Source: Psococerastis gibbosa (lineage: Eukaryota; Arthropoda; Insecta; Psocodea; Psocidae). Taken from it: a DNA stretch of 64,000 nucleotides. Within the stretch, counting starts at the first letter, position 1; each line of letters begins with the position of its first letter. The notes beneath the pieces were generated by a model. It ran no database searches. It saw only the letters and a program-made list of their open reading frames with translations, and was not told the DNA's origin. Of this stretch, positions 1,868 to 60,473 are shown piece after piece. The DNA lies in assembly GCA_963971405.1 (NCBI GenBank), contig OZ020491.1:25104855-25168854 (forward strand), written 5' to 3'. The translations under genes and the position numbers were made by a program.

Positions 1868-2285
1868 AGGCGCCCATTCCACATACGTACAACGTCAATG
1901 AAAATTATGAAATTGAAGGACATTTCAATTTCTCATTGATGGGGGCCATTCCATATGTTTTTCAAAAATTGACAATTTTCAATTGAAGCGTATGCGCCAA
2001 ATTTTTGAAATTTGTTTCTTGAAATTGTATTTGTTTTCTTCGTCGCCTTATTATTTAATCCTTATTATAATTTTTATACAGAAATGCTTTCTTTTTAGAG
2101 AAATCAATTGAAATAGTTGTACTTGTCATATCACATGACGCCATATTTTAATTTTATATTGTTTGTGATTTTACTCTATTATCAATTGATCATTGATCAA
2201 TTTTAACAATGGCATAGAGTAAAATTGAAATGCCCTTCAATTTCATAATTATCATTGACGTTGTACGTATGTGGAATGGGCACCT
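1868..2285. mobile_element. MITE, AGGCG superfamily (type A, long form)
   Basis: The ends are inverted repeats: AGGCGCCCATTCCACATACG on the left and its near complement at 2250-2285 on the right. Inside, past a second layer, is the core module TGATCATTGATCAATTTTAA flanked by 'actcta' and 'tagagt', the same core found in the B, C, F and I elements. No transposase is encoded. Confidence 0.85.
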
Positions 2286-3329
2286 AAAGGCGACAACCCA
2301 TTGAGATTTACGTTTTCCATTGTTTTCCTCCCTGTCGCGTCCGACCGCAGTTCACATTTTATTTTGAAGCATAACGTGCGTCAATGACCCCCTTACGGGA
2401 GAAAGAGAAACTAAAAAAAATTGTTTTAAACTTTATACCCCATGTTTTTCTAAACGGGCTCTTGATTAGGGATGCTCACCGTGGTTGATGGTAAATTGGA
2501 AGAAGAGCAAAATAATTCGTCCGCAACTGCTGTGAACGTCTTCAGTGGAGGCGCTGAATGCTAAGGTTTTTCCTCGGCAGAGTCTACACCTATAAAGATA
2601 CTTACAGCAGTTGTGGATGAAACATCTGTTCTACATTTTCCAATTGCCCACATGCCCAGATAGTTCTTCTGCTTCAAGTTACAGCCAATGGCAGATCCAC
2701 GGGGGGGGGGGGGGGGCTCACGACCCCCTAAATAAGTAAATTCATAAAATACCTAGTAAAAAAATTGAATAAAACTCAACTTCTCAACCAAAAAAATTAT
2801 CTTTTAAACATACAAACAACTTGCGACACCCCCCCCCCTTTAATTTTTCACTGGATCCGCCCTTGGGTACAGCCGGCTGGCTGGTTGGCAGCAACATGTG
2901 ACATTGATAACTGCACTCCCCTCGATCCTGGCACGCCCTTTTCAGCTCCACATATGTACTAGCCCCCCTACATCTACCAATCTACCATCACTTGCTGCAG
3001 ATACTCCATATAGTTAGGTTCCTTCTTTTTGAGAAGTTAGGCTCCTAATATTTTATATAGGTATTGTTTGTTTCTCCTCGGACCATCGCTCATGAATACT
3101 CATTATACTGTTTTCTGGAGATATATGCTATAAGGCTTCAGGCATTATTTTTTAAAGTGCGTGTTGTAAGGTATACTGTACAGGTGTGGCCTTTAATCTG
3201 TGTGTCTTTTTTTTTTTTTTTTTTTTTTTATATAAGTTGGGGTACAGGTGTTACCTGTGTGCACTTAAGCCTATTGGCCTATTGTGCCCCCTACAACAAA
3301 GTATCTACATCACTTCTACATCACTTTCT
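2286..3329. other. gene-free stretch around a G-tract MITE
   Basis: No exon is recognised. Around 2530-2610 is a short repeat remnant ('cttcagtggaggc'), similar to 6570-6640. A 20-base T tract lies near 3209-3229. The open frames here are short and have no family resemblance. Confidence 0.45.
2690..2862. mobile_element. small MITE with GGATCC-type ends (copy 1 of 2)
   Basis: The element runs from GGCAGATCCACGGGG to CTGGATCCGCC, so the ends are short inverted repeats. A 16-base G run follows the left end and a C run lies near the right end. The interior matches 19551-19717 ('aaactcaacttctcaac' against 'aaactcagcttttcaac'). Two copies with the same boundaries support an element rather than chance. 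Confidence 0.7.
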
Positions 3330-3893
3330 CGAGGCCTATCTCCCTCACGAGAGCCAGGATCTTGAGGGGATTCAGAAGTGGTAGGTCTTTTACATGTAAC
3401 TGCAAGCTTTCCGAGCATGCTGCTCTTCTTCGTGCGATTGCATCGCATCGCATCGCAGGTCCTCCGCACCTTCATTGCAGAATCTGCAAGACTATAGTTG
3501 TCTCCCTAAGAGACTCCAGATATTTAACCCCAGGACCAAAGACGCCAAGGCCTGTTCTTGGTTTGGTACTTCCTAGCCTAGAGCCATCAGTATACCACTT
3601 GATTGTGTGACTATTGAGAATTCCTGCTGATTCGCAGCATTCTTTCATTGTCCCTAATATAGTTTCGAATTCCCTCCTAAAACAGTATTTTGGATGGATT
3701 CTATCGCTTGGCATATCCAGGCAGTGGTCAGACGTAGTCAGAGAGGCTGAGTCTCTCTTAATTGCCCTTCCACTCCTAGTAATGCCATTTCTGCAGAAGT
3801 TTCCACTGCAACATGGAGGGGTGGGAAGTCCAGTACTATCTCCATCTGTGTGTCTTGGTATATTGTTCTTGTTCTGGAATTTATTTTTCAATA
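3330..3893 (-). pseudogene. LINE RNase H region fragment
   Basis: On the minus strand an open frame of about 135 codons contains KWYTDGSRLGS, then GLGVFGPGVKY, the 'YTDGS' motif and following strand of an RNase H domain as found at the C-terminal side of many non-LTR retrotransposon polyproteins. Downstream (about 3420-3480) 'RFCNEGAED' precedes a short CGATG-type expansion that breaks the frame. The 48,700-48,960 fragment in the WASp gene carries the same RFCNEGAED block, so the two are copies of one LINE family. A MITE inserted at 3894 cuts its 5' side. Confidence 0.75.
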
Positions 3894-3925
3894 GGCGCCC
3901 ATTCCACATACGTCAATCGTCATTG

Positions 3926-3967
<42 letters not shown>

Positions 3968-4082
3968 ACGTTTTAGCAGACATTAAAGACATACTAAAAA
4001 TTCTGCTACCACGTCAATTTACGTCATTTTGACGTCATTTTTCAATTTTTCATTGACGATTGATGTATGTGGAATGGGCGCC
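3894..4082. mobile_element. MITE, AGGCG superfamily (type A) with A40 expansion
   Basis: The inverted ends are GGCGCCCATTCCACATACGT and the complement at 4050-4082. The middle has 'agcagacattaaagacat' and 'tctgctaccacgtcaat', the mid module shared by the superfamily. An uninterrupted run of about 40 A residues (3926-3965) stands where sister copies have only five, so a poly(A) expansion sits inside one arm. Confidence 0.88.
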
Positions 4083-4172
4083 ACAGGGAAAATTAGTCAG
4101 ACAGAGTGAATGTAGGGATTCTGAAGGCTCATGAAGTTAGTAAATATTTATTCTATGGTTTCAATCCTTTTT

Positions 4173-5000
4173 GCTTTCCAATTTATACGTAGTATAAGGA
4201 AAGTTTGGTGATGGTTGAAATTTTCGATTCCGAGATTTCAACGGATTTACACGTTTTGAGGTCCTAGGAACCAAAAAAACTGGTTTTCATGAAATGCCTG
4301 TCTGTCTGTCTGTCTGTTCATCGATTTCCGGGCAAACTACTCGGTCGAATTTGATGAAATTTAGCATGTAGGTTGACAAAAATCATACCTCGGGAGCGTT
4401 TTATTTTTAATTTGGGCCAACACAATTTAGGGCGGTTTTATTCTCAAAAAACTCCAAAAAAACGTCTAAATGAATTATTTCTCAAAAACGGCTCCAACGA
4501 TTTCTTATTAAATTCACTTATATTGTAGTAGTTATTATTGCCCCTTGATAGTTTGCTTCTAGGGGTAAAAAAATAAAACTAACTAAATTTTCATGAAAAA
4601 TGACTAAAAAATAATTTTTCTGCGGAACCTTTCTTTCGATAATTTCTACCTTCCGGCATGTTTTAGGTGTTTAAATTGAGTAACGAAACCCGGCAGGTTG
4701 CCTTCCCAGAAAATAATTTGGTTTTGTACAAAAAAGGTTTTTTTGAAGAAATGATAAAAAATTCACGCTCAAATGCATTGCGTGCCCTGCCAGTATTGCT
4801 GTGTGGTAATGTGTTGGTCTGACCTATCTAGAACTGACCTCACCTCTAGTGACGTCAGGTGGACAACCCCCCCCCCCCTGGGATATCCGAAATTTAACCA
4901 TAGGAAAATTATTTACCATGAAATTACTCATTTTCTCTATCTAATAATGTTGAGAAATTGGAAAGCATGTTCGAGTAAACTCGGACCGGTTCTTTTTTTA
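4173..5000 (+). repeat. R1 interspersed element, full length
   Basis: This is one of the longest dispersed repeats in the window (about 820 bases). It starts GCTTTCCAATTTATACGTAG, has a variable CTGT microsatellite about 130 bases in, a C/G homopolymer about 120 bases before the end, and finishes ATAAATTGGAAAGCATG followed by a hairpin CGAGTAAACTCG and 'gaccggttcttt'. Other copies: 9251-10436, 14640-14948 (-), 16165-17012, 36755-37571 (-), 41249-41811, 43147-43958 (-), 52037-53079 (-). The short inverted GCTTTCCAATTTAT ends suggest a non-autonomous DNA element, but the 3' tail beyond them is not typical. Confidence 0.85.
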
Positions 5001-5009
5001 AGCATAACC

Positions 5010-5295: not shown

Positions 5296-5459
5296 AGGCG
5301 GGTATTCCACATACGTCAATCGTCAATGAAAAATTGAAAAATGACGTTTTAGCAGACATTGAAGACATACTAAAAATTCTGCTACCACGTCAATTTACGT
5401 CACTGTTACGTCATTTTTCAATTTTTCATTGATGATTGACGTATGTGGAATACCCCCTA
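5296..5459. mobile_element. MITE, AGGCG superfamily (type A)
   Basis: Perfectly paired ends AGGCGGGTATTCCACATACG and complement, with the mid module 'agcagacattgaagacat' and 'tctgctaccacgtcaa'. The whole 164 bases can fold as one hairpin. Confidence 0.9.
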
Positions 5460-8740: not shown

Positions 8741-8782
8741 GATTATATGATATTAATTATAATTTTAATTATATTAATAATC

Positions 8783-9250: not shown

Positions 9251-10436
9251 GCTTTCCAATTTATACGTAGTATAAGGAAAGCCTTGAGATTTCAACGGGA
9301 TTACACGGTTTGAGGTACCAGGAACCGAAAAAGTGGTTTTTACGAAATGTCTGTAGCTCTGTCTGTTTGTTCATCGATTTCCGGCCAAACTACTCGTTTT
9401 GCTTTTTTGCTTTCCAATTTATACGTAGTATAAGGAAAGCTTTGTGATGGTCCAAGTTTTGATTTCCGAGATTTCAACGGATTTACACGTTTTGAGGTCC
9501 CAGGAACCAAAAAAAGTGATTTTTACGAAATGTCTGTCTGTCGCTCTGTCTGTCTGTCTGTTCATCGATTTCCGGGCAAACTACTCAGTCGATTTTGATG
9601 AAATTTGGCATGTTGGTTCACAAAAATCATACCTCGGGACCTTTTTTTTGGGCGGGGGGGGGCTAACTCAATTTGGGGGGGTTTTATTCTCAAAAAATTC
9701 ACAAAAAAACATCTCAAAAAATTATTTCTCAAAAACGGCTCCAACGATTTCTTTTAAATTTACATATGTTGTAATCGTTATTAATGAAAATGTTCATAAA
9801 ATGAAATGCGGTGGGTCACTTGCCCCTTGATAGTTTGCTTCTGGGGGTAAAAAAATAAAAATAACTAAATTTTCATGAAAAATGAGTAAAAAATAATTTT
9901 TCTGTGAAACCTTTCCATCGATGATTTCTACCTTCAGGAGTGTTTTAGGTGTTAAATTGAGTAACGAACCCGGACAGGTTCCTTTCCAAACAAACTATTT
10001 GGTTTTGTGCAAAAAAAATGTGTTTGAGAAAATGATAGAAAATTCACGGTCAAATGCATTACGTGCCCTGCCACTATTGCTGTGTGTTAATGTGTTGGTC
10101 TGACCTAGATCTAGAATTTACCTCACCTCCAGTGACGTCAGGTGGACAACCCCCCCCCCCCCCCCCCCCCGGGACACCCGAAATTTTAACTATAGGAAAA
10201 TTATTTACCATGGAATTACTCATTTTCTATCTACTAATTTATAAATTGGAAAGCATGTTCGAGTAAAATCGGACCGGTTCTTTACTTGTTGCTTTGTGAT
10301 TTCAACAGAACTGCACGTTTTGATGTTCCAGGTACCCAAATGTTTTTTTCTTCGAAATGTAGGTTTGTTGGTAACTTGGTATGTCTGTCTTGTGGCTAAA
10401 ATAATCCACGTAATTTTGATTGGATTCTGGACATGT
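9251..10436 (+). repeat. three R1 elements in tandem
   Basis: An R1 5' fragment (9251-9408) is followed by a full R1 copy (9409-10285) and a degraded third 5' fragment (about 10286-10436, 'tttgtgatttcaacagaact'). The full copy carries a C20 tract near 10150-10170 and an open 60-codon frame at 9921-10103, also open in two other R1 copies. Confidence 0.8.
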
Positions 10437-10459
10437 ATAGTAGTGGTACGACCTCTTGA

Positions 10460-10644: not shown

Positions 10645-10743
10645 AGGCGCCCATTCCATGGAATCGCCACCTAAGCCTTGAATGTCTGCTACCACGTCAC
10701 CGTTTTTGTAAATAGCCCTAGCCGGTCGGTGGAATGGGCGCCT
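10645..10743. mobile_element. MITE type B lacking its inner layer
   Basis: Starts AGGCGCCCATTCCATGGAAT and ends GGTCGGTGGAATGGGCGCCT. It keeps only the end of the inner element ('cgccacctaag') and the right outer arm ('gtctgctaccacgtcaccgt'), so it is an internal-deletion form of the B composite. Confidence 0.8.
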
Positions 10744-12390: not shown

Positions 12391-12535
12391 TTTAACTATT
12401 TTTTTGTCTAATTGCACTCCACTATAACCTGAACGGTGGGAGCCATACCGTACCCTTACGTTAACTACCGTTAACTATAAATCAAATATCAGAGATAAGT
12501 ACCAACATAACAAATATCCAAGTCTTGCACATTGC

Positions 12536-12919
12536 AGCTCCCATTCCATCGACCGGCTGGGGCTATTTACAAAAACAGTGACGTGGTAACAGACATTCAA
12601 GACTTAGGCAGGGTTTCCACCGACCTCGCATTGCAGAATGCAAATGACATTGACGGAAATTAGAATTTTTCTTTTTATAGAAATCTATTAGAATGTTTGT
12701 ACTTAACATATCCCATGACGCCATTTTTTAATTTTAGTTTGTTTTTTTGTGATTTTACTGTATGATCATTGATCAATTTTAACTACGGCATAGAGGAAAA
12801 TAAACATTTCCGTCAATTCTGCAATGCGAGGTCGGTGGAAACCTCGCCTAAGCCTTGAATGTCTGCTACCACGTCACTCTTTTTGTAAATAGCCCTAGCC
12901 GGTCGATGGAATGGGCGCC
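12536..12919. mobile_element. composite MITE type B (outer plus inner)
   Basis: The outer arms (about 70 bases each, 'gaccggctggggctattta' and 'gacgtggtaacagacattc') enclose an inner element at 12606-12849 with its own inverted ends AGGCAGGGTTTCCACCGACC and the core TGATCATTGATCAATTTTAA. The outer-inner junction is the same as in the copies at 23038, 40871, 54029 and 54604. Confidence 0.9.
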
Positions 12920-13506
12920 ATAGCAGAACGGATACCTGGACCCCGTCAAAACTCTGTACTTAGCTTGTCCAGGCTATTTACCCAGCGAAATTTTGTGCAG
13001 GCTACACTAGCCGCCATATTGATAACGGTCTACAGCCACGTGATGGTTGCGAGTCCTTAATATGTTTATATGTCCATGCCTCCGTGTAAATATTATGAAA
13101 ACAAGTACACTGACGTATAAATAGGGAAGCAAAAATTGCTGCCATCTGTCGAATATGTAGGTATCTATCAAATTGTGCTTTCTCACAAGGCACGAACGTC
13201 CATGAACCATATATTATATCGTCGAATTAATGAGTCATTAGTTTCTGACTAGTTAAACAACAGTCTGTATGGTTTTGCTGCTATCTTAGCATGATTGTGA
13301 CCTTATGTGGGCCGTATTAGGTATTCGTGATAACTCATTACCATTCGTTTGTTACTTTAACAAAAGGTACCTTCAATTTCATTCATCGTGTCCTTCATCG
13401 CGGAGAAGCACAATGATAACGGCTGTGTTCAAAATGGTATAATCTCTGTTGTTATGTATCTATCGCGGAATAGTCATGAGGCCATACGACCATTCCGGCA
13501 TTTCAT
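12920..13506. other. no gene recognised
   Basis: Unique-looking AT-rich sequence. Two overlapping short minus-strand frames (near 13002-13210) have no recognisable motif and no nearby splice sites in a consistent phase. Confidence 0.45.
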
Positions 13507-16020: not shown

Positions 16021-16164
16021 TAAAAAATGAAAGAGCATGAAAATTAACAAGGATATATTTTAACTTAATGAGAACCATGAAACCTTTTTATTATTTTCTT
16101 CAACCGTTTCTATAATTTTAAGATTCTCCTAGCAGCAGGCTATTCGCAGAATTTTTAATTTTTT

Positions 16165-17012
16165 GCTTTCCAGTTTATACGTAGTATAAGGAAAGCTTTG
16201 TGATGGTCGAAATTTTCGATTCCGAGATTTCAACGGATTTACACGTTTTGAGGTCCCAGGAACCCAAAAAAGTGTTTTTTACCAAATGTCTGTCTATCTG
16301 TCTGTCTGTCTGCTCATCGATTTCCGGGCAAACTACTCGGTCAATTTGTATGAAATTTGGCATGTAGGTTCACAAAAATCATACCTCGAGTTCAATTTTT
16401 TTTATTTTGGGCTAACTCAATTTGGGGGGGGGGGGTTATTTTCAAAAAACTCCAAAAAAACGTCTAAAAAAATTATTATTTCTAAAAAACGGCTCCAACG
16501 ATTTCTTTTAAATTCACATACATTGTAGTCGTTATTAATGTAAACAAAATGCGGGGGGTCGCTTGCCCCTTGATAGTTTGCTTCTGGGGGGGGAAAAAAT
16601 AAAAATAACTAAATTTTAAGGAAAAATTACTAGAAAGTAATTTTCTGCAAATCCTTTCTATCAATGATTTCTACCTTCAGGAATGTTTTAGGTGTTAAAT
16701 TGAGTAACGAAACCGGACAAGTTGCTTTCCCAAAAAAAGTATTTGGTTTTGTGCAAAATTTTTTTTTTGGAAAATGATAGAAAATTCACGATCAAATGCA
16801 TTGCGTGCCCTGCCATTATTACTGTGTGGTAATGTGTTGGTGTGACCTATCTAGAATTTACCTCACATCCAGTGACGTCAGGTGGACAACAACCCCCCCC
16901 CCCCCCCTCCGAGATATCCGAAATTTAACCATAGGAAAATTATTTACCATGAAATTACTCATCTTCTCCATCTACTAATTGATAAATTGGAAAGCATGTT
17001 CGGACCGGTTCA
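16165..17012 (+). repeat. R1 interspersed element, full length
   Basis: Starts GCTTTCCAGTTTATACGTAG and ends 'aaattggaaagcatgttcgg'; the 3' hairpin is partly lost. It has the CTGT run, a G9 tract and a C14 tract at the usual places. The 60-codon frame seen in other copies is shifted here. Confidence 0.82.
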
Positions 17013-17533: not shown

Positions 17534-20500
17534 GTAAGTACTGCCAGTTTCCGCATTCCTGAAATGAGCGAAAAATGCGGAAACCCGTGTGAAACGTATA
17601 GAAGGGGACACTCCTACTTCGACGTCGGATCTATTCTGAACGAGCCCCTAAACCTCTATATGATTTGCTTGCAGAAGCAGGGGATCAATAGAAAAACTCT
17701 GGATCCGCCATATTTAGGTCTTAAACTTTCGCGCCAAATGAAACTCAATAGTTTTCTTATGGTAACCCAAGATTTTTAAAACAAAAACATTTATCTTTAA
17801 TAAGGCGGCTATTCCACCGGCGATTTTACTTCATTTTTGATTTTGTCATTGACGTTTGTTTTGTTTTAAGGAGACTATTATGTAGATACTTAAATTATCT
17901 ATTATAAATTAAGTTATAATATGGCAGCAGGCATCATTAATAAGTCTCTACCATATTATAACTTAATTTATAATAGATAAGTTAAGTACCGTATCTACAT
18001 AATAGTCTCTTTAAAACAAAACAAACGTCAATGACAAAATCAAAAATGAATTAAAGTCGCCGGTGGTAGGTGGAATTGCCGCCTAACTAATGTTTTATTT
18101 TAACTTAATGTTTTTCTTAGGCGGTAATTCCACCGACCTCATTTTTCATAATGCACGTGACATGACGTGGTAGCAGACATAATTAATAAGTCTGCCATAT
18201 TTTAAGGAGACTATAATGTAGATACTTAACTTGTCTATTATAAATTAAGTTATAATATATTGTTTGTTGTAATTTTGAACATGAAGAGGAATAAGGCATT
18301 AAGAGAGAATTGGTTTTCTAGCTCTCCTGAAAAGTAAGGTCAAACGGAGATGGTGCCTTGAGACTTTAGGCGCGGCTCGGATTTGCAAACAATAGAAGCT
18401 CAGAACCGCCTAAATTCGTACGCACATTGTTTGCGATATGACGATGTCTTTAAAATATACACACAGCCTACGTGCTTTCAGAGGTGACATTATGGTCCAA
18501 TCGGACAACCACACTAAGTTTTTTTTTGTTTTAGAAAAAAGTCGAATTTCACAGGAAATATCCATTGTGTACCTATCAAATATGTCGTAGCCCTTATTAA
18601 AAAATGGTTGCAAAGCATTATTTTATGTGCCTGCCTATTGGCCACAGTTATTGTACTTCGTCTGTTAAATAATAACGGATTGTGAAGTCGAGAGGCATAG
18701 GAGTTAAGAGCAAGCTGGCTGACCACATTGGCCACCCCTGATTCACCCTAAAATAGGTTGGTCTATATTTATTATTTAAGTTAATACCTACTTTAAGTGA
18801 CATAGATTTGATCTATTCAATTGATAGAGGAATATTTTATGCATATTACTACGACGATTTATTTGGTTTTGACCTAGGGGGTTTTCCGTGAAACTGATAA
18901 CCAACAGAGATTTACCGAATTATGGAGTTCATGGAAAAATAATACCAACAAAAATTAAAAACACTTCATAACAGGTTGTATGAAATAGTCCTCTAGCAAT
19001 TGAGTGGACCAAATCTTTATAAATTTAAGTATTAACTTAAGTAAAAAATATAAACTAACCTGATTCAGGCTGATCCAGGGGTGGCCAATGTATACGGCCA
19101 GCATCCTCTTAACAAACTGTGGCCAATCGGTGTTAGTGACGGCCACATTTCTAATAATGACAGCAATCTATTTTTCCTGTGAAATTTTTCTTAATGAAAA
19201 AAAGGATAGTGTGGCTTGACATAAATAAATAAATAATTACTTCTTGTTCTATTACTAAGCCTACCTAGCGGAGTTAGGGCTACAAGGCCCTCTCTTACAC
19301 TCAAATAGGAAGGCCCGAACCGGCTGCTTTACAAGCCCTCCGAAGCATGGCCAGAAAATGTAGCAAGTCTGGGACTCGAACCAGCCACCTTTCCAGTGAA
19401 ACTCGGAGTCCACAACACTACTCTACATGTCCTGACTACCAATACCACCGCTGGATACATGCTCCTAATCCTAAATGTGTGCCGAGTTTCAATTTAAATA
19501 CTTGTACCTCAGCTAAAATAAAACAAGAACAAAATGAGGGTTTAGCGAATGGCGGGGGGGGGGGGGGGGTGTCGGTCACGGGGGTCATGACTCTTATTAA
19601 GTTAATTCATAAGATAGTTAAAAAAATAATAATTAAACTCAGCTTTTCAACAAACAAATTACCTTATAAACTTACACAACTTGTGACCCCCCCATAAATG
19701 TTCCGCTGGATCCGCGCTTGGGTTTAGGTACGCCTGAGAACTAAAGGAGGTTGCTCGCTTTTGAGCACAGCATTTGGTCAGCAAGGTGCCCCCTTAACGG
19801 TGAAGTTAAGTTACCCATTGTTGAGTTGGAGGGACCAGGGCTGGATTCAGAGGCGGTCCCAGACCTCATGAAAGGGGGAGGCACTTGTCAAAATTTTTCA
19901 AAAATAGGGCTGAAATATTGGGGTTTTACTCATTTTGAGTGCAGTTAGCACTTGGATTTTAGAGGCAAAGAATATAACTGCCCTCCAAAGGGGGGGGGGC
20001 AATTGCCCGCAGTGCCGGTCGCTGCGTCCGCCTCTGGCTGGATTAACCATCCCTGGGCCTTAGGCAATGAAATTGGTGGTCCCCTCCCCCCCTCTATGGG
20101 CTCTACGTCTGAAGTCTTACTAGGTAAGGTGACTAGCATTGCAACTAATAATACTAAAAACAAACTATGCATCATATTTTATTGATATTAAAGTTTTGGC
20201 GGGAAAACTTTCTGCTTTAAAAATTTTAGTTTTACAATATTATGAAAAGCACATTTTTCAAGGTATTATGAAAAGTTTTGAAAAATTACGTATAAATTAA
20301 CTTTTTAAACAAATTTGTGGGCCCTAAGGCGGGGATTCCACCAACGTCAATAGTAATATTAAATGTTTTTTGACGTGGTAGCAGACAGTTTTAGACTGTC
20401 TAAAAATGTCTGCTTCCACGTCAAAAAACATTTAATATCACTATTGACGTTGGTGGAATCCCCGCCTTAGGCAGTTGTCTAGTGCCGAGTAGTGACTAGT

Positions 20501-36284: not shown

Positions 36285-36490
36285 TGATACCTCAGGACAT
36301 GTAGACTAGTGGTACGGACTCAGACTTTCACCCGAACGGTTGTTGGTTCGAGTCCCACAGTACCTACATTTTCTGGCCATGCCTCGGAGGGCATGTAAAG
36401 CAGGCGGTCCCGGGTCTTCTTAGTTGAGTGTAAGAGAGGGCTTATAGCCCTAACTCCGCTAGGTTGGCTTAGTAATTGAACAAAAAAAGT
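36285..36490 (+). repeat. tRNA-derived SINE family S1 (best-preserved copy)
   Basis: The A-box-like 'tagactagtggtacgg' and B-box 'ggttcgagtcccac' lie at tRNA spacing, followed by 'cggagggcatgtaaagcagg' and 'ggttggcttagtaattgaac', and a short A run. Confidence 0.85.
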
Positions 36491-40870: not shown

Positions 40871-41248
40871 AGGCGCCCATTCCACCGACCGGCTAGGGCT
40901 ATTTACTAAAACGGTGACGTGGTAGCAGACATTCAAGACTTAGGTGGCGTTTCCACCGACCACGCATTGCAGAATGCAAATGACATTGACGGAAATTAGA
41001 ATTTTTCTTTTTATAGAAATCTATTAAAATGTTTGTACTTAACATATCCCATGGCGCCATTTTTTAATTTTAGTTTGTTTGTTGGTGATTTTACTGTATG
41101 ATCATTGATCAATTTTAACTATGGCATAGAGGAAAATAAACATTTCCATCAATTCTGCAATGCGAGGTCGGTGGAAACCCCGCCTAAGTCTTAAATGTCT
41201 GCTACCACGTCACTGTTTTTGTAAATACCCCTAGCCGGTCGGTGGAAT
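40871..41248. mobile_element. type B composite MITE, right end deleted
   Basis: Left outer end AGGCGCCCATTCCACCGACC is intact, and the inner element (40942-41185) is complete. The right end stops at GGTCGGTGGAAT, eight bases short, exactly where a 5'-truncated R1 element starts. Confidence 0.88.
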
Positions 41249-41811
41249 AAAAAACGTCTAAAAAAATTATTTCTCAAAAACGGCTCCAACGATTTCTTTT
41301 AAATTCACATATATTGTAGTTGTTATTAGTGTTAACAAAATGCAGGGGGTCGCTTGCCCCTTGATAGTTTGCTTCTGGGGTTAAAAAAATAAAAATAACT
41401 AAATTTTAATGAAAAATGACTAAAAAATAATTTTTCTGCGAAACATTTCTATTGATGATTTCTACCTTCAGGCATGTTTTAGGTGTTAAATTGAGTAACG
41501 AAACCGGACAGTTTGCTTTCCCAAAAAAATATTTGGTTTTGCACAAAAAATGTTTTTTTGAAGAAATGATAAAAAATTCCCGCTCAAATGCATTGCGTGC
41601 CCTGCCAGTATTGCTGTGTGGTAATGTGTTGGTCTGACCTATCTAGAACTGACCTCACCTCTAGTGACGTCAGGTGGACAACCCCCCCCCCCCCTGAGAT
41701 ATCCGAAATTTAACCATAGGAAAATTATTTACCATGAAATTACTCATTTTCTCTGTACTAATTTTGATAAATTGGAAAGCATGTTCGAGTAAACTCGGAC
41801 CGGTTCTTTTT
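41249..41811 (+). repeat. R1 element, 5'-truncated
   Basis: Starts mid-element ('aaaaacgtctaaaaaaatta') and runs to the normal 3' hairpin end. The 60-codon frame (41455-41637) is open here. Confidence 0.85.
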
Positions 41812-42485: not shown

Positions 42486-45400
42486 GTGAGTAATGTCAGT
42501 TATGTATTAGATTTAATTTTTTAGTACTCAGTATTTAGTTTATTTTCCAGATTACAAAATAGTATATAGTATTTCATCCTTTACCCCAAGGCAACGCCCG
42601 TGCGCGGTTGTTATACCTAGCTACAAAGCAATGTTTAAATTCATATGCATAAATGCAGTCAAATAAAATACAAATGGAACAATGGGTAAAGGTTCAGTTT
42701 AGCTACCCCTAACAAAATCATAAAATTTTATTTCCTGGCGATTCCTTAGTTTCAAAGAAGTCCTTCTGTTAAAAAATTAAAGGTCTGTCAAGAATAGTTT
42801 TTTAGTTACATCAAATCAAAAGTGTACTTTTTTAATATTGAACGTTGGAGTGCGGTGATATTTTTATTTACAAATTTACCTTTAAAATGTTTTGGGCCCA
42901 TTATTGCTATTTTTTATGTATGCGTGCCTGGTTTTTTAATTTTAAATTTATTTACTTTAAATCATCATTCCCATACTTTATTAAATACCTAAATAAATTA
43001 TTACACGTGTTCTCATTTTGCAGTTAGATATAGGCCGCATGGAAGGTTAATTTCCCAAACGAATGCAAATCTATTTTGAATTATTATTGAATAGGCATTA
43101 TCTTGCCATGAGTAGGTAATTTTCCTTCCATGCGACTAAAATAATAAAGAACCGGTCCGAGTTTACTCGAACATGCTTTCCAATTTATCAACATTAGTAG
43201 ATAGAGAAAATGAGTAGTTTCATGGTAAATAATTTTCCTATGGTTAAATTTCGGATATCTGAGGGGGGGGGGGGGGGGGTTGTCCACCTGACGTCACTAG
43301 AGGTGAGGTCAGTTCTAGATAGGTCAGACCAACACATTACCACACAGCAATACTGGCAGGGCACGCAATGCATTTGAGCGTGAATTTTGTATCATTTCTT
43401 CAAAAAAAAATTTCTTGTACAAAACCAAATTATTTTCTGGGAAGGCAACCTGCCCGATTTCGTTACTCAATTTAACACTTAAAACATACCTGATGGTAGA
43501 AATCATCGATTGAAAGGTTTCGCAGAAAAATTATTTTTCATTCAGATTAAGTTATTTTTATTTTTTTACCCCCAGAAGCAAACTATCAAGGGGCAAGCGA
43601 CCCCCCGCATTTTATCAACATTAATAACAACTTCAATATATGTGAATTTAAAAGAAGTCGTTCGAGCCGTTTTTGGGAAAGAATTTTTTTAGACGTTTTT
43701 TGCCGTTTTTTGAGAATAAATTGAGTTAGCCCCAAATAAAAAAAATGGTCCCGAGGTATGATTTTTGTGAACCTACATGCCGAATTTCATCAAAATCGAC
43801 CGATTAGTTGGCCTGGAAATCGACGCACAGACAGACAGACAGACATTTCGTAAAAACCACTTTTTTGGGTTCCTGGGACCTTACAACCGTTGAAATCTCG
43901 GAATCGAAAATTTCGACCGTCACAAAGCTTTCCTTATACTACGTATAAATTGGAAAGCAATAAACAATGAAGGCATCATGGTTGCGTGGGAGGTTCATGT
44001 CTCAATGAAACCAAAATAGTATAGAAATCCAGTCATGGCGTCAAATTCCGATGATTTGATTGATCAGGCAGGGACCCATTGGCTACCTGGTATAGAGCCC
44101 AGGGGGAGGTAGGAATAAATTTTGAGCGGTTTATTGGTTTGACGGGTTAAAAACTACAGGCACGTCCATGATTATGAAGGACTAATTAGAAAGTCTAGAG
44201 CTGGGTACGGAAATGGTAATGAAGTGTGAAGCAACATATGGAGTCCAAAATAATAATGGGAAATTGCCATGTACAATGCTTTCCCCGTGCGTTAACCTTT
44301 GTCGTTCCTGCAGCCTGATCGAGGCGATTATAATACCGGGGTTAGATAAATACCCTAGGATTATAACTGTAAACAAACAAATTTTGAATAGCACTTTCCA
44401 TTATAAAATTATCTTGTTTACATTTTTATTACCAGGGGATTAAATAAATACCGGTATTTAATACCATGTCACGTGATGGGATTAATTCAATTGTTTAAAA
44501 TAAAAGACAAGCAAATTTCAGATTTTTTTTTTTAATTTTTGATGTTGGTGATCGTTGCAGTGCTAAGCGCGGAAAATTCAAATTTAAACAATTGAATTAT
44601 CTTCAGCTATATTTTTGGTGGGTTTCTTCATTTTTTCTGCCTTAGATTTAGACAAATTATTTATAATCCTTAATATATTAATTCAAAATATTATAACTTG
44701 TTTATTTCTAGGGCGATGTGTGTTTATATTTGCTATTTATATTTGCTACGGCAGCGTCGGGTCAGTTCAGTTGGTTAGCATTGCCAACATCACAATTTAA
44801 AAATTCTGAAATTTGCCTTTCATTTATTTTAAACAATTGAATTAATCCCATCACGTGACATGGTATTTAATTAACCCCGGTATTATAATCGCCATGATCA
44901 CGCTGCAGCTGCTTGGAACAATGCAATTGCAACAATGTAGTTGTGTCATTAGTGTCGCTTGGGAATTTCTTTGTCCCCTTGCAGTTTCATTCAACATACA
45001 ATACAGTAGGTCTGTCTAGTTTCTAATCAAAAGATATCTAGCAGATACAAACTAAAACAATTAAATTCCGCAGAAAGGCAAAGGTTCCCATCATAATTTC
45101 CTTTCTGTCCAGTCCTGAACAGTTCTTTTAATCTTTAGTTCTGCTTCTCAGTTTCTTGTTACAGGTGTTCTAAAATTAATGTCTTATAAGGCGGGGTTTC
45201 CACATACGTCAATCGTCAATGAGAAATATGGTTTTGACGTGGCAGCAGAATTTTTAGTATGTCTTTAATGTCTGCTAAACCTTCAATTTCACATTTTTCA
45301 TTGACGATTGACGTATGTGGAATCCCGCCTTAGGTGACCCTCGCATGTGACTGAAGCAACTTCTGTTTGACTGATTGTTTTCTGTATTTTCAGGTTTACA

Positions 45401-48400: not shown

Positions 48401-49982
48401 CTCCTCCCCCTTCCATGGTGATACCCCGACCACCAGTCAGCCAGGAGATGAGAGGTCAGGCCCCGGATGTACCTGGTGCACCAGCGCCTCCCCCTCCTCC
48501 TCCCCCCTCTTCTGAGCCTGTGCCTACGCCTGTCCCTCCTCCCGAAGACAATCGCTCCGCCCTGCTGGCGGCCATCAAGTCTGGGAGAACGCTGCGGCAT
48601 GTGGAGGTGGAACAGCGATCTAGCACTGGCAGTGACTCGAGAGGCGACCTGCTGGATGAGATAAGACGTGGAGTCGAGCTTAAAAGTGTACGTAACAAAT
48701 AAACATATTGTTTAGTAAGGCTCTGGGAAGCCACCAGCGCAAAAGAGCCCAAGTATGCATTCATATGAACAAGAGAGATCTGCGAGTGATCACAGAATTC
48801 CTCTCTGGGCATTGCAACTTGATCGGAAATCTGACTAACATAGGTGTCAGAGAGTCTAGAGCATATAGATTCTGCAATGAAGGAGCGGAGGACCCCGAGC
48901 ATATCCTCCTTCACTAGGAAGAAGAGCAGCATGCTTGGGATGCTTGTAGTCCTGGCTCTCCTGTGGGAGGAAGGCCTCGAGGAAGTGATGTAGATACTTT
49001 GTTGTTTATATAATAGGCCCAATAAGCTTAAGTGCACACAGGTAACTCCTGTAATCGAATTAATTCAAATAAAAAAAGGCTCGGAGACTGTGGTTCTGCA
49101 ACAGCCCAACAGCGCTTATTCCACCAACCAATAGTGATAGTAAATGTAGTATTGACGAAAATTTGAATTTTACTCAATGCCATAGTTAAAATTGTTCAAT
49201 GATCATAGAGTAAAATCGCGCGCTGCAAAAAAATAACAAACTAAAATGGCGTCATGGGATATGTTAAGTACAAACATTTTATATTTTATTGTTTATAAAA
49301 CAATTTTCATCAATTAAACAGATCGGATTCGGATCTCCTACTATTATTAGGTTTTATTAAAAATAATAAGTGTACAAAGAAAACAAATACAAACAAAATT
49401 TCAAAAAACAAATGCTACAAATTTCAAAAATTTGGCGCATACGTGTCATTAAAAGAAAAGTGATCAATAGTTGAAAAAACCAGTGGAATGGCGTGTATCA
49501 ATGAAAAATTCAAATTTCCGTCAAAACTACATTTACTGTCACTATTGACGTTGGTGGAATAAGCGCCTAAAGTCCGGTACCCACAGACGATTCAGTTGCC
49601 AACGATCCGCTGAGAAATTTGTCCCGTTAGAAAATGCCACGCTTCCTACGATCAACCATAGAAATAAGCATGATTCAAAAAATATCTTTGGCACGCTGGT
49701 AGGTCCTATATGTATTACGTCTAAGGGACAATTTTTTCCCAAATAAATAAAAAATCTCGCGGCACGTTAACAGTTTTTAAGCAAATAGGAAGATGTACAA
49801 TTGTATTTGTTAAACGGTTTCAGGTGCAGCCAAACGAAAAACCTACAGGTCCATCGCTTCCGGCGGAAGGTCTCGCAGGGGCTCTGGCCAGAGCATTGGC
49901 TGAGAGGAACAGGGCCTTCCACAACAGTGATTCCGACAGTGAAAGTAGTACTGCCGATGATGATAGCGAATGGGAGGAGTGA
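42225..49982 (+). CDS. WASp: Wiskott-Aldrich syndrome protein homologue (7 coding exons)
   Basis: A nucleation-promoting factor that, when opened by Cdc42-GTP and PIP2, binds actin and Arp2/3 to start branched filaments at membranes. Exons 42225-42485, 45394-45553, 46220-46348, 47454-47623, 47876-48122, 48371-48687 and 49824-49982 give about 480 residues (fly and human N-WASP about 500). In order: WH1/EVH1 (about 13-138; LLSREEHNMLYTLVG, SYFFRLF, LLWEQE, ALNFA-like AFNFASDDEAEKF); basic patch KKKDKGKIKIRK; CRIB IGLPKDFRHVSHVGW (202-216); proline-rich region with two P7 runs; two WH2 motifs (SALLAAIKSGRTLRHV and GDLLDEIRRGVELKSV); central helix LAGALARALAERNRAFH; acidic end DDDSEWEE with the Arp2/3-binding Trp. 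All joins keep phase. An upstream coding exon cannot be excluded. The identification is secure. Confidence 0.95.
43147..43958 (-). repeat. R1 element, full length, in WASp intron 1
   Basis: Runs from 'gaaccggtccgagtttactc' to 'acgtataaattggaaagc' with a G18 tract at about 43263. The 60-codon frame is open on the minus strand (43324-43506). Confidence 0.88.
44314..44910. mobile_element. nested palindromic element with CCTGATCGAGGCG ends
   Basis: Outer ends 'cctgatcgaggcgattataa' and 'attataatcgccatgatcac' pair. An inner pair 'atgtcacgtgatgggattaa' with 'aattgaattaatcccatcac' brackets about 330 bases. A shorter relative without the inner layer lies at 52342-52505 and a fragment at about 21430-21535. 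Confidence 0.78.
45189..45330. mobile_element. MITE, AGGCG superfamily (type A), 63 bases before WASp exon 2
   Basis: Ends AGGCGGGGTTTCCACATACG and the complement. The mid module has 'gacgtggcagcagaattttt' and 'tctttaatgtctgct'. A near-perfect hairpin close to the branch-point region of intron 1. Confidence 0.9.
45394..45553 (+). CDS. WASp: WASp exon 2 (WH1, C-terminal half)
   Basis: Acceptor 'ctgtattttcag', donor GTTG|gtgagt. Encodes VYNDMEYTAPRTWLHTFEAE and ends NQLVAKRQRRV, the last helix of the WH1 domain. Confidence 0.93.
46220..46348 (+). CDS. WASp: WASp exon 3 (linker)
   Basis: Acceptor 'tattttttcgcag', donor TCAG|gtatag. Encodes a Ser/Thr-rich linker RRSRASLGSNDVVQGS to HHRSTSS. It has no domain, and phases match on both sides. 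An AAAT run follows at 46481-46496. Confidence 0.85.
46800..47275. mobile_element. degenerate hAT-like element in WASp intron 3
   Basis: The right end 'ccgcggtccccaagttgaga' with 'atcacc' resembles the standard hAT end read outward. A C18 tract precedes it and a C9 tract lies near the left (46862-46872). The left end is too decayed to fix. Confidence 0.45.
47454..47623 (+). CDS. WASp: WASp exon 4 (basic region and CRIB)
   Basis: Acceptor 'tctcaattctcacag', donor AAG|gtaaaa. Encodes AAKKKDKGKIKIRKEDIG followed by LPKDFRHVSHVGWDP, the PIP2-binding patch and Cdc42-binding motif (consensus ISxPxxFxHxxHVG). Confidence 0.95.
47876..48122 (+). CDS. WASp: WASp exon 5 (autoinhibitory segment and proline-rich start)
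   Basis: Acceptor 'cctaatttgcag', donor CCAG|gtaaca. Begins AGVSETQLKDKDTRQFIYDF and continues NGGLDAVKEEV, the GBD segment that folds onto the central region. It then turns proline-rich (APTRAPPVPSRAPPPP). Confidence 0.93.
48371..48687 (+). CDS. WASp: WASp exon 6 (proline-rich and both WH2 motifs)
   Basis: Acceptor 'aaaatggttccag', donor AGT|gtacgt. It carries two P7 runs and the WH2 motifs. The donor lies inside the second WH2 (LKS|V), the same place where the family motif continues in exon 7. Confidence 0.92.
48700..48960 (+). pseudogene. LINE fragment in the last WASp intron
   Basis: A frame reads KRDLRVITEFLSGHCNLIGN, then ESRAYRFCNEGAEDPEHILLH and a stop. The 'L.GH..l..hL...g......CRfC....E...H.L..C' pattern is the segment after RNase H in LINE polyproteins. 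It shares RFCNEGAED with 3330-3893. It starts about 20-30 bases after the exon 6 donor. Confidence 0.75.
49111..49568. mobile_element. MITE, AGGCG superfamily (type I)
   Basis: Ends 'agcgcttattccaccaacca' and 'gacgttggtggaataagcgc'. Contains 'atgccatagttaaaattg' with 'atgatcatagagtaaaa', the core module in reverse order relative to B elements. It lies in the last WASp intron. Confidence 0.85.
49824..49982 (+). CDS. WASp: WASp exon 7 (central and acidic regions)
   Basis: Acceptor 'taaacggtttcag', 52 codons and TGA. Begins VQPNEKPTGPSLPAEG, then LAGALARALAERNRAFHNSD, and ends STADDDSEWEE. The last codons form the first bases of a repeat unit that recurs three times downstream. Confidence 0.95.
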   Translation: MQPNEKPTGPSLPAEGLAGALARALAERNRAFHNSDSDSESSTADDDSEWEE

Positions 49983-51423: not shown

Positions 51424-51794
51424 AGGCGGAGTTTCCACCGATCTCTCATTGCAGAATGCACATACGTTGACGTGGTAGCAGACATTCAAGACTTAGGCGG
51501 GGGTTCCATCGACCTCTCATTGCAGAATGCAAATGACATTGACGGAAATTTGAATTTTCCTTTTTATGGAAATCTTAACATATCCCATGACGCCATTTTT
51601 TAATTTTAGTTTGTGATTTTACTCCATGATCATTGATCAATTTTAACTATGGCATAGAGTAAAACAAAAATTTCCGTCAGTGTCATTTGCATTCTGCAAT
51701 GAGAGGTCGGTGGAAACCCCGCCTTTATTAATGATATCTGCTACCACGTCCACGTATGTGCATTCTGCAATGAGAGGTTGTTGTAAACCCCGCC
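51424..51794. mobile_element. nested MITE, AGGCG superfamily (type C in C)
   Basis: Outer ends AGGCGGAGTTTCCACCGATC and 'gaggttgttgtaaaccccgc' with mid module 'gacgtggtagcagacattc'. An inner element (51495-51724) has ends AGGCGGGGGTTCCATCGACC and the core TGATCATTGATCAATTTTAA. Outer and inner share the same terminal family, unlike type B composites. Confidence 0.88.
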
Positions 51795-52036
51795 ATAACT
51801 GCAACTGGAAAGATATTGTTAAAGCCAGAAGCGGCTATCGTTGGGCTTTTGTTTACTACTTCTGTCCTCCTACAGTATATTCTGTCTTTGATCGGATTCT
51901 GTGCATTGCATGTTGAGTAGGGTTGTTTTCAGTTGATCTGAATCAGTTCGTTGGGTTAGGTAAATAAAAAAATGTTTTTGTGTGCAACTGAAATCGGTAG
52001 AAAGAAGTCTATCTCGTAATGTGACACAACTATAAT

Positions 52037-54028: not shown

Positions 54029-54422
54029 AGGCGCCCATTGCCTATTCCACCGACCGGCTAGGGCTATTTACAAAAACGGTGACGTGGTAGCAGACATTCA
54101 AGACTTAGGTGGCGTTTCCACCGACCTCGCATTGCAGAATGCAAATGACATTGACGGAAATTAGAATTTTTTCTTTTTATGGAAATCTATTAAAATGTTT
54201 GTACTTAACATACCCCATGACGCCATTTTTTAATTTTAGTCTGTTTGTTTGTGATTTTACAGTATGATCATTGATCAATTTTAAATATGGCATAGAGGAA
54301 AATAAACATTTCCGTCAATTCTGCAATGCGAGGTCGGTGGAAACCCCGCCTAAGTCTTGAATGTCTGCTACCACGTCACCGTTTTTGTAAATAGCCCTAG
54401 CCGGTCGGTGGAATGGGCGCCT
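54029..54422. mobile_element. type B composite MITE (most complete copy)
   Basis: Outer ends AGGCGCCCATTGCCTATTCC (with a small 'cctatt' duplication at the left) and GGTCGGTGGAATGGGCGCCT. The inner element is at 54107-54351. The outer arms pair over about 75 bases. Confidence 0.92.
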
Positions 54423-54603
54423 TAGTTCTGGAAAGATGGGAGTAATAGCTACCTAATGTATTCTGTTGACTGTGGCATACTGTTCAATTAAGTGTTACAC
54501 GGCCAACAGTCATCTTACAAATGATATTATAATATGCAAATGCTTGGCGTAGGCTACAACACTGTACCTTGTAAACAAGGTATAAATTAATAAAGCTTCG
54601 TAT

Positions 54604-54983
54604 GGCGCCCATTCCATTGACCGGCTAGGGCTATTTCCAACAACGGTGACGTGGTAGCAGACATTCAAGACTTAGGTAGCGTTTCCACCGACCTCGCATT
54701 GCAGATTGCAAATGACATTGACGGAAATGTTTGTTTTTCTTTTTATAGAAATCTATTAAAATGTTTGTAATTAACATATCCCATGAAGCCATTTTTTAAT
54801 TTTAGTTTGTTTGTGATTTTACTGTATGATCATTGATCAATTTTAACTATGGCATAGAGGAAAATAAAATTTCCGTCAATTCTGCAATGCGAGGTCGGTG
54901 GAGACGCCACCTAAGTCTTGAATGTCTGCTACCACGTCACCGTTTTTGGAAATAGCCCTAGCCGGTCAATGGATTGGGCACCT
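54604..54983. mobile_element. type B composite MITE, second neighbouring copy
   Basis: Same architecture as 54029-54422, only 181 bases away and in the same orientation. The inner element is at 54674-54912. The outer ends carry the 'attgaccgg' variant shared with the 23038 copy, so it is a separate subfamily and not a local duplication. Confidence 0.92.
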
Positions 54984-55001
54984 ATTGGAATGTGACAAGC
55001 T

Positions 55002-57282: not shown

Positions 57283-57440
57283 TTACTTTTTGTTGTTTCT
57301 ATTACTAAGCCAACCTAGTGGAGTTAGGACTATAAAGCCCTCTCTTACACTCAACTAGGAAGGCCCGGGACCGCCTGCTTTACATGCCCTCCGAAGCATG
57401 GCCAGAAAATGTAGCCATTGTGGGACACAAAAGAGTGCCC
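57283..57440 (-). repeat. tRNA-derived SINE family S1
   Basis: Minus-strand copy: 'ctactaagccaacctagtgg', 'gggaccgcctgctttacatg' and 'ctccgaagcatggccagaaa'. The head is truncated. Confidence 0.8.
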
Positions 57441-58724
57441 TGCACAGAAAATAGTGTGTTTTTCGCTTATCCCGGCACAAACTATCTGTTCAGTCACCAT
57501 TATTACGCGCTTCCATCTTCACCACGAGGAGGTACGAATAAGGGATTTTCGCGTTTTCGCCTCTGAGACCAAAAGGCGTTACTCAAAAGCTCAGCTACTT
57601 TGAAGAACTTACATTCCAAGTGTTAATAGAGAACATTAATTGGAAGGTGGGGGGTACAGACTAGACATAAAATGAAAATTTTGTTTTGGGTCTACGCAAC
57701 TCCTTCACCGGCAGGGGAAAACGCGGCTTCTGGCCGCTGGACATGTTGCTCGCCTGAACATCCCAAACAAAAGACCTCAGTTAAAGAATGGGAATCCTCT
57801 GTTTAGGCCTAAACCCGCAATGGGTGGCAATTTTTATTAAGAAAACAAATATTAATACATAAAAGTGGCACCATAAACTGTACCTATATCGTTAGTGGTT
57901 TTTTTCTCTCTTCTTTTTTTTTAGAATTTTTACAGCCATTTTTTATCGCATTTTCCTAACATTCTGAACGGTTTTAAATTAATAGGGGGCCCCAGCATGG
58001 GTTAATCCTATGTTAGTTTAGGTTAGTTAGTTTAGTTAATTTCTTACATCTGTGACCCACCGAGGTGGGATAGACGGCGTTCAATATAAAGTACAACTAG
58101 TACTACCTACACATTTAATGATTCAATCAATTTAAATAAAACAATATTGCCAAAGGCAATCGTTATAAGCGAAGGTATTGACTGCTGTAGTCTGTCAAGA
58201 GATGGGGGTTTTGTAATCACCCCAATCTAAATCCCAGTACTCATTTAAACTGTATAGAGGGCCATCCTTCAATTTCCTGTCAATAGCTGCTTTAAACAAC
58301 GGGAATTTCATTGTCATTGGGGCCCCCTTACCACCAATTAATATAATACGCTGTTGACCTGTTGTATATTTTTATATTATTAAATATCTTACTGCATAAT
58401 GTATGTACCTTTGAAATGCCTTCAAGTTTCGGCATTCGTTTCAATGAAAGCCTATTGGTTCTAGAGTGTGTATTCCCTAATTAATGTGGTACCGTACCTA
58501 TTAAACATTCAGTCAAGGTGACTCAGTGGTCAACTGCAGTGACTAATAATATACGAATAAGTTTTCTAGATGAAAAGGAAAATAATAATTTTTGTGATTT
58601 TTTTTTGCAAACAAATAATTTAGGTAATAGGTTAATAAATATACAAATGAAGTGGCTTGAGTATACAATTTCATTGTACATCAAGTGATTATTGATAAGT
58701 AGAGGATTTGGCATTTACTGGACT
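57441..58724. other. no gene recognised
   Basis: AT-rich sequence with a T-rich stretch at 57895-57925. The small open frames show no motif. Confidence 0.45.
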
Positions 58725-58925
58725 TGTCGGGGCTTGTGGTCCAGCGGTTAAGACGACGCCCCGGTTAGGCGTAGATCGTGGGTTCGAATCCCGCCAAGCC
58801 CAGTTTTTTCCATTTCCTCTAATTTCAGTTATAACGAGGAGGTTACCTCTTCAACCAAAGTTAATTTAATGTCAGTGTTATATATACCATATAATACTAC
58901 AATGTAATAGTTAGTATTCGTTAAA
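58725..58925 (+). repeat. S4 SINE with complete tRNA-like cloverleaf head
   Basis: Positions 58730-58801 fold as a tRNA: acceptor GGGCTTG/CAAGCCC (7 of 7 pairs), D arm with GTC/GAC, anticodon stem ACGCC/GGCGT, loop CCGGTTA, T stem GTGGG/CCCGC and loop TTCGAAT. The base before the would-be anticodon is C instead of the universal U33, and the sequence continues into a tail shared with 55775-55925, so this is more likely a SINE head than a working tRNA gene. Confidence 0.75.
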
Positions 58926-60151
58926 ATGTGTAGATAATGAATAGCCCCATGTAATATTGTTTCCAGTGAAGGGTTTTTTTGAAGTTTTTTTGGGGAGGCA
59001 GTTACAATTGATTGACCTAAATACACGGAAGTTACTGAATCGGAACGAAGATGGGTTTGCTGTGGCTTGATGCAATCATTTGTAGTCTTTCCAATAGTTA
59101 TGTAATGATACCTTCGATTATGATGAATGAATGAATGATTTTTTCCGATTCTTCTAAAAAAGGTTATTGTATATAGTCTTAAATTAAGTGAATTTTGAGA
59201 AACTTTCTATCATATCAGCTAGCAACAGATTTTTAAAATTATTTCGTCCTATCCTCCAGAAAAAAAAAGTTTGCACACACGAGCGAAAAAACCGGAACAA
59301 GCATTGTCCGGTCAAACATTTATTTTTTTACCGGACAGAGGTACGAAAAACTGGACTGTCTGGTGAAAAACCGGACACCTGGCAACCCTATCCTAAACCC
59401 TAATGAAAGTTATAGTGCTCTTACACGCCTCTCGTATATCCAGAAGGTTTAAGCAATTGAAGAGGCTGAGAGAGTGCTCCTTGTTATTGCATCATCCTTT
59501 CTCATTTTTTTGATTATTGCACAGTATTAACACCTCTTTAGAAGATTCAACAAAATTAAAAAAAAATAAGTATTCACACCGCGTCGAATCGATGTTAATG
59601 TTGTAATTTAACCCCCGAGTTAGAAACGTTAATTAGGGGTGAAAGGACTCCACCCCCACGGTCTGCTGTTCGATTAAAATTCAATTCACTGGAAATAACT
59701 ATCGTAGAGCCCTAAATGTGATGTCATAGGTAGAAGAAATGTTCCTATACATTTAAATAGATTAGATGTGAGTGTGACCGTCACTACCATGATTTGGCCG
59801 CCATTTAGTACTCTTTGGACTTCTCATCCTTATTGCCCTTTATTTTTTGCAACTTAAATAAAATAACTGTGACCGATCGGTACACTAGTGACATCTTCTT
59901 CCTTTAATACCTCTTGTATTGGAGTTTGGCGATCATCATGGCAATTTGTACCTTGGAGACACAGTTTTCGAACTCCTTCCTCCGTACGCTCACGCCAACC
60001 GATTTTTACAATATGCATATGCAAGTTTGATATTAGGCGCATATCAACAAATGTATAGGCACATTTTTTAAAAGGGATATGACATTTTTGACAGCTCTAC
60101 GATTGATATTTTTAATGAGAGATTTGACTTTTACACTTGTAAATCTTCATC
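58926..60151. other. no gene recognised
   Basis: AT-rich. A LINE-end-like fragment on the minus strand may lie at about 59905-59985 ('cgatcatcatggcaatttgt'). Nothing else stands out. Confidence 0.45.
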
Positions 60152-60473
60152 TGGCGGGGTTCCCACCGACCTCTCATTGCAGAATGCAAAGACATTGACG
60201 TGGTAGCAAACATTCTAGACTTAGGCGGGTATTCCACCGACCTCTCATTGCAGAATGCAAATGAAATTGACAGAAATTTTTGTTTTACTCTGTGCCATAG
60301 TTAAAATTGATCAATGATCATGGAGTAAAATCACAAACAAACTAAAATTAAAAAATGGCGTCATGGGATATGTTATGTACAAACATTTTAATAGATTTCT
60401 GTAAAAAAAAAAATTCAAATTTCCGTCAATGTCATTTGCATTCTGCAATGAGAGGTCTGTGGAATACCCGCCT
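60152..60473. mobile_element. type C MITE with only the left half of its outer layer
   Basis: Outer left arm 'ggcggggttcccaccgacct' with 'gacgtggtagcaaacattc' leads into a complete inner element (60223-60473, ends AGGCGGGTATTCCACCGACC and complement) whose core is inverted relative to the 51495 copy. No outer right arm follows. Confidence 0.85.

Follow-up and report, generated by a model that had tools for sequence, protein, structure and literature searches.

Layered miniature inverted-repeat transposable elements in Psococerastis gibbosa: a probable joint product of graded divergence, nesting, exchange and arm rewriting

A stretch of 64,000 nucleotides from the psocid Psococerastis gibbosa (GenBank assembly GCA_963971405.1, contig OZ020491.1, positions 25,104,855 to 25,168,854; hereafter the window) contains many short hairpin elements that share their ends and are built from differing terminal, middle and core layers. 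We read them as Tourist-like miniature inverted-repeat transposable elements (MITEs) of the PIF/Harbinger superfamily, in which the layers arose by four causes acting jointly: graded divergence of the terminals, nesting of one element within another, exchange between terminals and interiors, and rewriting of one hairpin arm from the other. We put the probability of this explanation at about 0.75. The labels B, C, A, A', G, H, F, J, K and L, together with 'D core' and 'middle', are our own or were taken over from an earlier sequence-only reading of the window, and come from no database.

The motif AGGCGN{0,6}TTCCAC occurs 23 times on the two strands of the window, compared with a mean of 0.14 and a maximum of 2 in 100 shuffles. 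In the whole assembly (409,210,807 bases in 68 contigs) AGGCGN{0,6}TTCCACC is found 15,066 + 15,065 = 30,131 times, and its reversed control 43 + 48 = 91 times. The sequence-only reading had claimed at least 18 elements of this kind, which is borne out by the 20 stretches that can be set out as elements or fragments; the terminal strings, middle string and two cores that it named are all present. Its AGGCG start has to be shortened, as the conserved start is GGCG and the leading A is part of the flanking TWA. Thirteen outer pairs in the window have both ends, comprising 12 of the 20 stretches plus the composite 23038-23421 that lies inside 22740-23510. The remaining eight entries (10645, 12529, 18119, the host 22740-23510, 33740, 40871, 54030 and 54603) are truncated, one-ended, interrupted or have one end damaged. 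An extra local sample was taken from 200 kb of contig C1 as 20 pieces, L009-L028.

The elements are best read as hairpins of the form GGCG(N4)TTCCAC .. GTGGAA(N4)CGCC in a TWA target, and are assigned to the Tourist-like MITEs because of their TWA flanks, their length and their hairpin folds. The 3-bp target duplication of PIF/Harbinger elements is spelled TWA. With 46 outer pairs spanning 117-457 bp and the many exact ends counted above, these are short, high-copy elements with terminal inverted repeats (TIRs), and all three that were folded gave strongly negative hairpin z-scores (-20.3, -12.0 and -20.1). Among 55 two-ended elements of the local sample, 36 are flanked at both ends by TTA or TAA, and the consensus of the 55 pairs is C-TWA / GGCG .. 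CGCC / TWA-G. Patterns for the short elements match genome-wide at 918+873 places with an outward TTA and 936+1000 with an outward TAA (reversed controls 0). Intersecting both listings across the initial 18.1 Mb of C1 yielded 95 elements, with identical TWA in 57, TAA/TTA in 20, TTA/TAA in 10, and C or G at the W position of one end in 8. Identical TWA in 57 of 87 compares with 43 of 87 under independence (p = 0.0026), and full independence of the two flanks is excluded by these listed elements from the start of C1. Taken with the TAA found at the nested insertion described below, the excess of identical TWA (57 of 95) indicates a 3-bp TWA duplication. PIF/Harbinger insertion creates a 3-bp target duplication (PMC2836001).

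MITEs of another superfamily, either piggyBac with its TTAA or Tc1/mariner-Stowaway with its TA, might have a target base preference that mimics TWA, and the TAA/TTA flanks (20 of 95) can be read as a 2-bp TA duplication around AGGCG..CGCCT. We give this hardly any credence. Identical 3-bp TWA exceeds expectation, TAA is duplicated by the nested insertion, and a locus with MADF and DDE_Tnp_4 genes and a TTA duplication (L046, below) bears related TIRs. The flank consensus does not contain the TTAA duplication of piggyBac, while the 3-bp TAA at the nested insertion and the excess of identical TWA disagree with the 2-bp TA of Stowaway; both are dropped because the flanks are 3-bp. Nor do the flanks of the 55 pairs contain any diagonal longer than 3 bp, as would correspond to the 7-bp target duplication of Galileo in the P superfamily.

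The composite of the middle module with the TGATCA core is a nested insertion. It is built of 71-bp outer arms flanking a complete C-type D-core element. The loop lacking the insert, AAGACTTAWTAATGATRTCTGC, occurs 228+193 = 421 times in the genome (reversed control 0), and 12 of the 12 empty-loop copies that were fetched are two-ended solo MITEs, mostly with C-like ends. When filled, the loop reads ATTAATAA, insert, TAGGTCTTG in L051; ATTAATAAA, insert, TAAGTCTTG in L014 and at 51495-51724 of the window; and ATTAATAAA, insert, TTAGTCTTG in L025. The filled loops are a TAA duplication plus later small changes. The 384-bp B composites are a few edits apart from each other. We propose that the loop of a short MITE received a D-core element at a TWA site, and that the resulting composite then multiplied as a unit. 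Transposition would use a compatible GGCG..TTCCAC end pair, so that a nested composite could move as one. The combination of middle module and TGATCA core had been attributed to module exchange, which the insertion and its empty form make unnecessary.

The sides of the insert have subsequently become alike in most copies. Of 25 tabulated inner pairs, three retain the asymmetric loop just described; in one (L023) both ends carry the ATTAATAAA side, in 19 both carry the ATTCAAGACTTA side, and the remaining two have the outer arm on one side only. In most composites with ATTCAAGACTTA on both ends the original TAA/TAA is now TTA/TAA. The simplest reading is that a single insertion occurred, that the composite spread, and that its sides became symmetric in two opposite ways. 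Quasi-palindrome template switching could rewrite one arm from the other and so make both sides alike, and this copying may sometimes reach the TWA flank, where it would generate an excess of palindromic flanks.

The terminals form in part a graded series. We constructed a minimum spanning tree from 114 distinct 34-nt subterminal sequences, drawn from 157 local termini. The path from B (CGACCGGCTAGGG) to C (CGACCTCGCATTGC) includes no step greater than 6 edits in 34, and that from A to G none greater than 7. C, L, K and G are linked by steps of up to 12 edits, and F and H reach the other terminals at no fewer than 13; shuffled pairs, of which 2000 were compared, had a mean edit distance of 19.8 and a minimum of 13. 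The intermediates between B and C in the local sample are outer arms of composites. It is probable that the block of ~30 nt inside TTCCAC diverged by graded steps. The idea of discrete terminal modules throughout does not survive the intermediates bridging B to C and A to G, although F and H do stand apart.

Graded divergence and nesting leave a conflict between terminals and interiors, which we judged from edit distances and class counts. Genome-wide, ends leading into the D core, TTCCACN{26,42}GACGGAAATTT, occur 1751+1757 times (control 1+1), those leading into the middle module, TTCCACN{24,42}GACGTGGTAGCAG, 9086+9153 times (control 0), and those of the AAGGAG core 1194+1200 times (control 0); the middle module has no matches in viral contigs. 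Terminal classes were counted in the first 100 matches listed for each interior. The D-core termini listed comprise 84 C, 13 A/G, two K/L/J and one of no class, and the middle-module termini 63 B, 23 A/G, eight K/L/J, five B/C intermediates and one C. A/G and C terminals therefore precede both the D core and the middle, and a terminal is not always found with the same core. Among these matches, the 13 A/G terminals before a D core differ by 0-5 edits from an A/G terminal that precedes the middle module and by 11-14 from a C terminal that precedes the D core, and one 31-nt terminal is identical in two of the 100 D-core and three of the 100 middle termini. The C terminal of the solo MITEs L040-L042 is that of 17 of the 100 listed D-core termini. 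In the local sample the A' terminal is identical before both interiors, and the nearest cases for C, G and F differ by 4, 4 and 6. The D core and middle switch at TTGACG (GAAGG in A'), and no duplicated target was seen at the TTGACG switch.

Some elements carry unlike ends. In L052 the left arm is A-type and the right arm G-type, and the two join within a common middle. Arms of differing class are found in four of 46 local pairs (45189-45330, L010 5367-5507, 17803 and 20985), the first two being siblings and so representing one event. The right arm of 20985-21421 is nearer to H, at a distance of 0.30. A solo MITE on contig C2 (L044, C2:28693660-28694080) also has unlike tips, GGCGCAAAGTCCAC at one end and GGCGGCGTTTCCAT at the other. 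As a process, this matches exchange of the Galileo kind, with one interior bearing several end types and copies bearing unlike ends. Terminals and interiors are not locked together, and exchange between them is real. Recombination, conversion or gap repair within shared blocks (TTCCAC, TTGACG and the middle hairpin) could link an interior to other ends.

Could mutation and sequential insertion with target duplications account for everything, with no exchange? The composites are nested and the terminals are partly graded, as such a scheme expects, but it is unlikely to be sufficient. Identical or near-identical 30-nt terminals (A/G, C and A') before unrelated interiors would require parallel evolution, the unlike ends of L052 join in a shared middle, and the switch from D core to middle lacks a visible target duplication. 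Sequential insertion is thus true of the composites and not of the rest. Conversely, discrete terminal, middle and core parts might be freely interchangeable, so that exchange alone would suffice. This agrees with the occurrence of A/G and C terminals with both the D core and the middle, and of F ends with two cores. Such free interchange is nonetheless very unlikely, as graded series bridge B to C and A to G, the composite came from nested insertion and its empty site survives, and B terminals make up 63 of 100 before the middle and none of 100 before the D core; the absence of B there among the matches listed means that combination is not free. The sequence-only reading had preferred module exchange to ordinary divergence, and the terminal-interior conflict and unlike ends uphold that in part, whereas the graded terminals and nested composites do not. 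Its example also stands partially: 20985 and 27383 share TTGTCAATA ends around different cores, of TGATCA type and AAGGAGACTATTATG respectively, but the right arm of 20985 is H-like.

We sought the transposase that might move these elements. A DDE_Tnp_4 profile search gave 150 matches among 150 scored of 220 candidates, and hence at least 150 places in the genome, and a MADF profile search 113 matches among 150 scored of 210 candidates; by eye, ~19 of the MADF matches are no more than 5 kb away from a listed DDE_Tnp_4 place. MITEs of the GGCG..TTCCAC type adjoin three of ten transposase loci that were read (L031, L045 and L050). L046 (C2, 50.587-50.590 Mb) has a MADF gene (5.8e-17) and two DDE_Tnp_4 pieces (3.9e-7 and 0.026), with TTA on both sides and a TIR, AGCCGCGTCTCCACCAACCGAAC, that resembles the MITE end AGGCGGCGTTTCCACCGACC. 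L046 supports the superfamily assignment, and is not an exact partner. Presumably the MITEs are moved by MADF-plus-DDE transposases that this genome encodes. Many DDE_Tnp_4 places, for example L029 (C1:11897900-11902400), score equally and contain 384-aa open frames, which suggests that this family is young; L029, the sole copy of it read, is without GGCG..TTCCAC ends. The 2.5-kb stretch between two D-core ends in L051 holds several MITEs and no long element, as seen with no profile search of its open frames. The A' D core reads MASCDMTSTTILIDFSKKKAFLYKNYNKD, which by eye has the look of a MADF start; Pfam returned nothing for it at E up to 10, and it was not used.

Several observations weigh against the four-part explanation. 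The listed matches in which terminal classes were counted all lie at the start of contig C1, and the local pieces L009-L028 were chosen around matches, so that rates from them are not genome averages. Two of the four local mixed-arm pairs, 17803 and 20985, have weak class assignments. In just 13 of 71 cases do an element's two arms form the closest pair, and concert between arms is therefore not general. The 36 local pairs with TWA on both sides do not exclude independence of the flanks, W being identical in 22 of 36 (p = 0.24 against one half, not significant). In the listed short elements W differs between the flanks in 30 of 87, where ~4 of 87 would be expected if A-T changes occur at half the frequency of changes to C or G; arm-type correction may explain these differences. 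Lastly, exact GGCG..TTCCAC ends surround the transposase gene at none of the ten loci (L029-L032 and L045-L050, 4.4-5.3 kb each). An autonomous element with the same termini, which the sequence-only reading had proposed to look for, is thus missing from these loci, and related ends occur only at L046.

Taking the four-part explanation further, we tentatively suggest that in a MITE lineage the hairpin interior persists while the ends recognised by transposase are repeatedly replaced, through unlike-end recombinants formed in the shared middle and arm-to-arm template switching that includes the target duplication. This is a possibility that we hold to be less probable than not. If it were true, one interior could pass from one transposase family to the next, and its trace would be the palindromic TWA flanks seen in 30 of 87 listed short elements.

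The elements and fragments of the window are as follows.

1868-2285: A'-type MITE with D (TGATCA) core, 418 bp, flanks TAA/TAA; member of a homogeneous family whose inner segment has 452+478 genome matches with at most 2 mismatches.
3893-4083: A-type MITE containing the middle module and a long run of A.
5296-5458: A-type MITE with middle module, flanks TAA/TAA.
10645-10743: remnant of a B composite, left outer tip beside right inner tip, then right outer arm.
12529-12920: B composite with damaged left end; inner C-type D-core element at 12606-12849.
17803-18084: H-type MITE whose AAGGAG core surrounds part of the middle module; flanks TAA/TAA, with an additional CTACCAC close to the right end.
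18119-18290, + strand: one-ended, with L-type terminal, middle module and AAGGAG core; right end not found, end approximate.
20327-20467: short G-type MITE with middle module, hairpin z -20.3, flanks TAA/TTA.
20985-21421: F-type left arm, H-like right arm and TGATCA-type core, flanks TTA/TTA.
22784-23510 (host stretch 22740-23510): C-type element split by other DNA and by the composite 23038-23421, which has TTA/TTA flanks.
27383-27553: F-type MITE with AAGGAG core, flanks TTA/TTA.
27778-27896: short F-type element, flanks TTA/TGA.
33740-33938: right part of a B composite, left part missing.
40871-41256: B composite with inner element 40942-41185; right tip missing.
45189-45330: short MITE with unlike arms, A(gt) left and A' right, flanks TAA/TTA; sibling of L010 5367-5507.
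49110-49568: G-type MITE with D core, 459 bp.
51424-51796: C-type composite retaining the asymmetric loop; inner element 51495-51724, its empty-site type occurring 421 times elsewhere.
54030-54422: B composite, left tip broken by a few bases; inner element 54107-54351.
54603-54985: B composite, both tips altered; inner element 54674-54912.
60152-60473: half composite whose sole outer arm, of C type, is on the left; inner element 60223-60473.

Other features are present in the window. Another dispersed repeat, with CTGTCTGTC runs, a C tract and GTGACGTCAGGTGGACAA, is found in at least six places in both orientations (4161-4998, 9286-10240, 16153-16979, 36869-37573, 41249-41764 and 43143-43701). 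A third repeat family, 84-88% identical to a reference copy and containing GGCCATGCTTCGGAGGGCATGTAAAGCAGG or close variants, lies at 30992-31144, 36291-36443 and 62864-63016. An open frame of 539 aa at 25307-26926 has an F-box at its start (PF00646, 1.3e-8), and ARAGORN predicts a tRNA-Thr with anticodon GGT at 58730-58802.

To our knowledge, it is poorly understood how MITEs acquire interiors unlike those of their autonomous partners and stay mobile as transposases change. Since intermediates, elements with unlike ends and empty sites coexist in this one genome, which has tens of thousands of such ends, nesting, exchange and arm correction can be separated and counted. Other hairpin MITEs can be inspected for palindromic TWA flanks, which make a simple trace. 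In the open-access literature we did not find nesting, exchange and symmetric flanks together in one set of PIF/Harbinger-like MITEs.

Rice mPing, with Ping and Pong, is similarly short and high-copy, with terminal inverted repeats and a 3-bp TWA duplication, and members of the PIF/Harbinger superfamily use two proteins (PMC2836001); insect PIF elements with transposase and MADF genes have been described (PMC9710019). Unlike mPing, the present elements are layered hairpins over nearly their full length, their composites multiply as units, and W differs between the flanks in about a third of the listed short elements. The sequence-only reading knew of no described family built in this way, but the principle is published. 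In Galileo of Drosophila mojavensis one central region is found with TIRs of three subfamilies, and some copies carry TIRs of two subfamilies, for which sequence exchange has been proposed as the cause (PMC3573991). Galileo itself belongs to the P superfamily, with long TIRs and a 7-bp duplication, and 170 copies were studied (PMC3573991), whereas the MITEs here are short, PIF/Harbinger-like and present in tens of thousands, and nesting contributes too. Carrot DcSto with insertions of DcSto2 or Tourist-like elements is also a MITE within a MITE, with a TA or TTA duplication (PMC3695323). In contrast to the carrot cases, one nested composite here has grown into an abundant family, with symmetry imposed on its two sides. 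Template switching at quasi-palindromes homogenises the arms of inverted repeats in yeast (PMC8604942; PMC3820800), and we propose that it acts likewise on MITE arms in this genome and perhaps on their target flanks.

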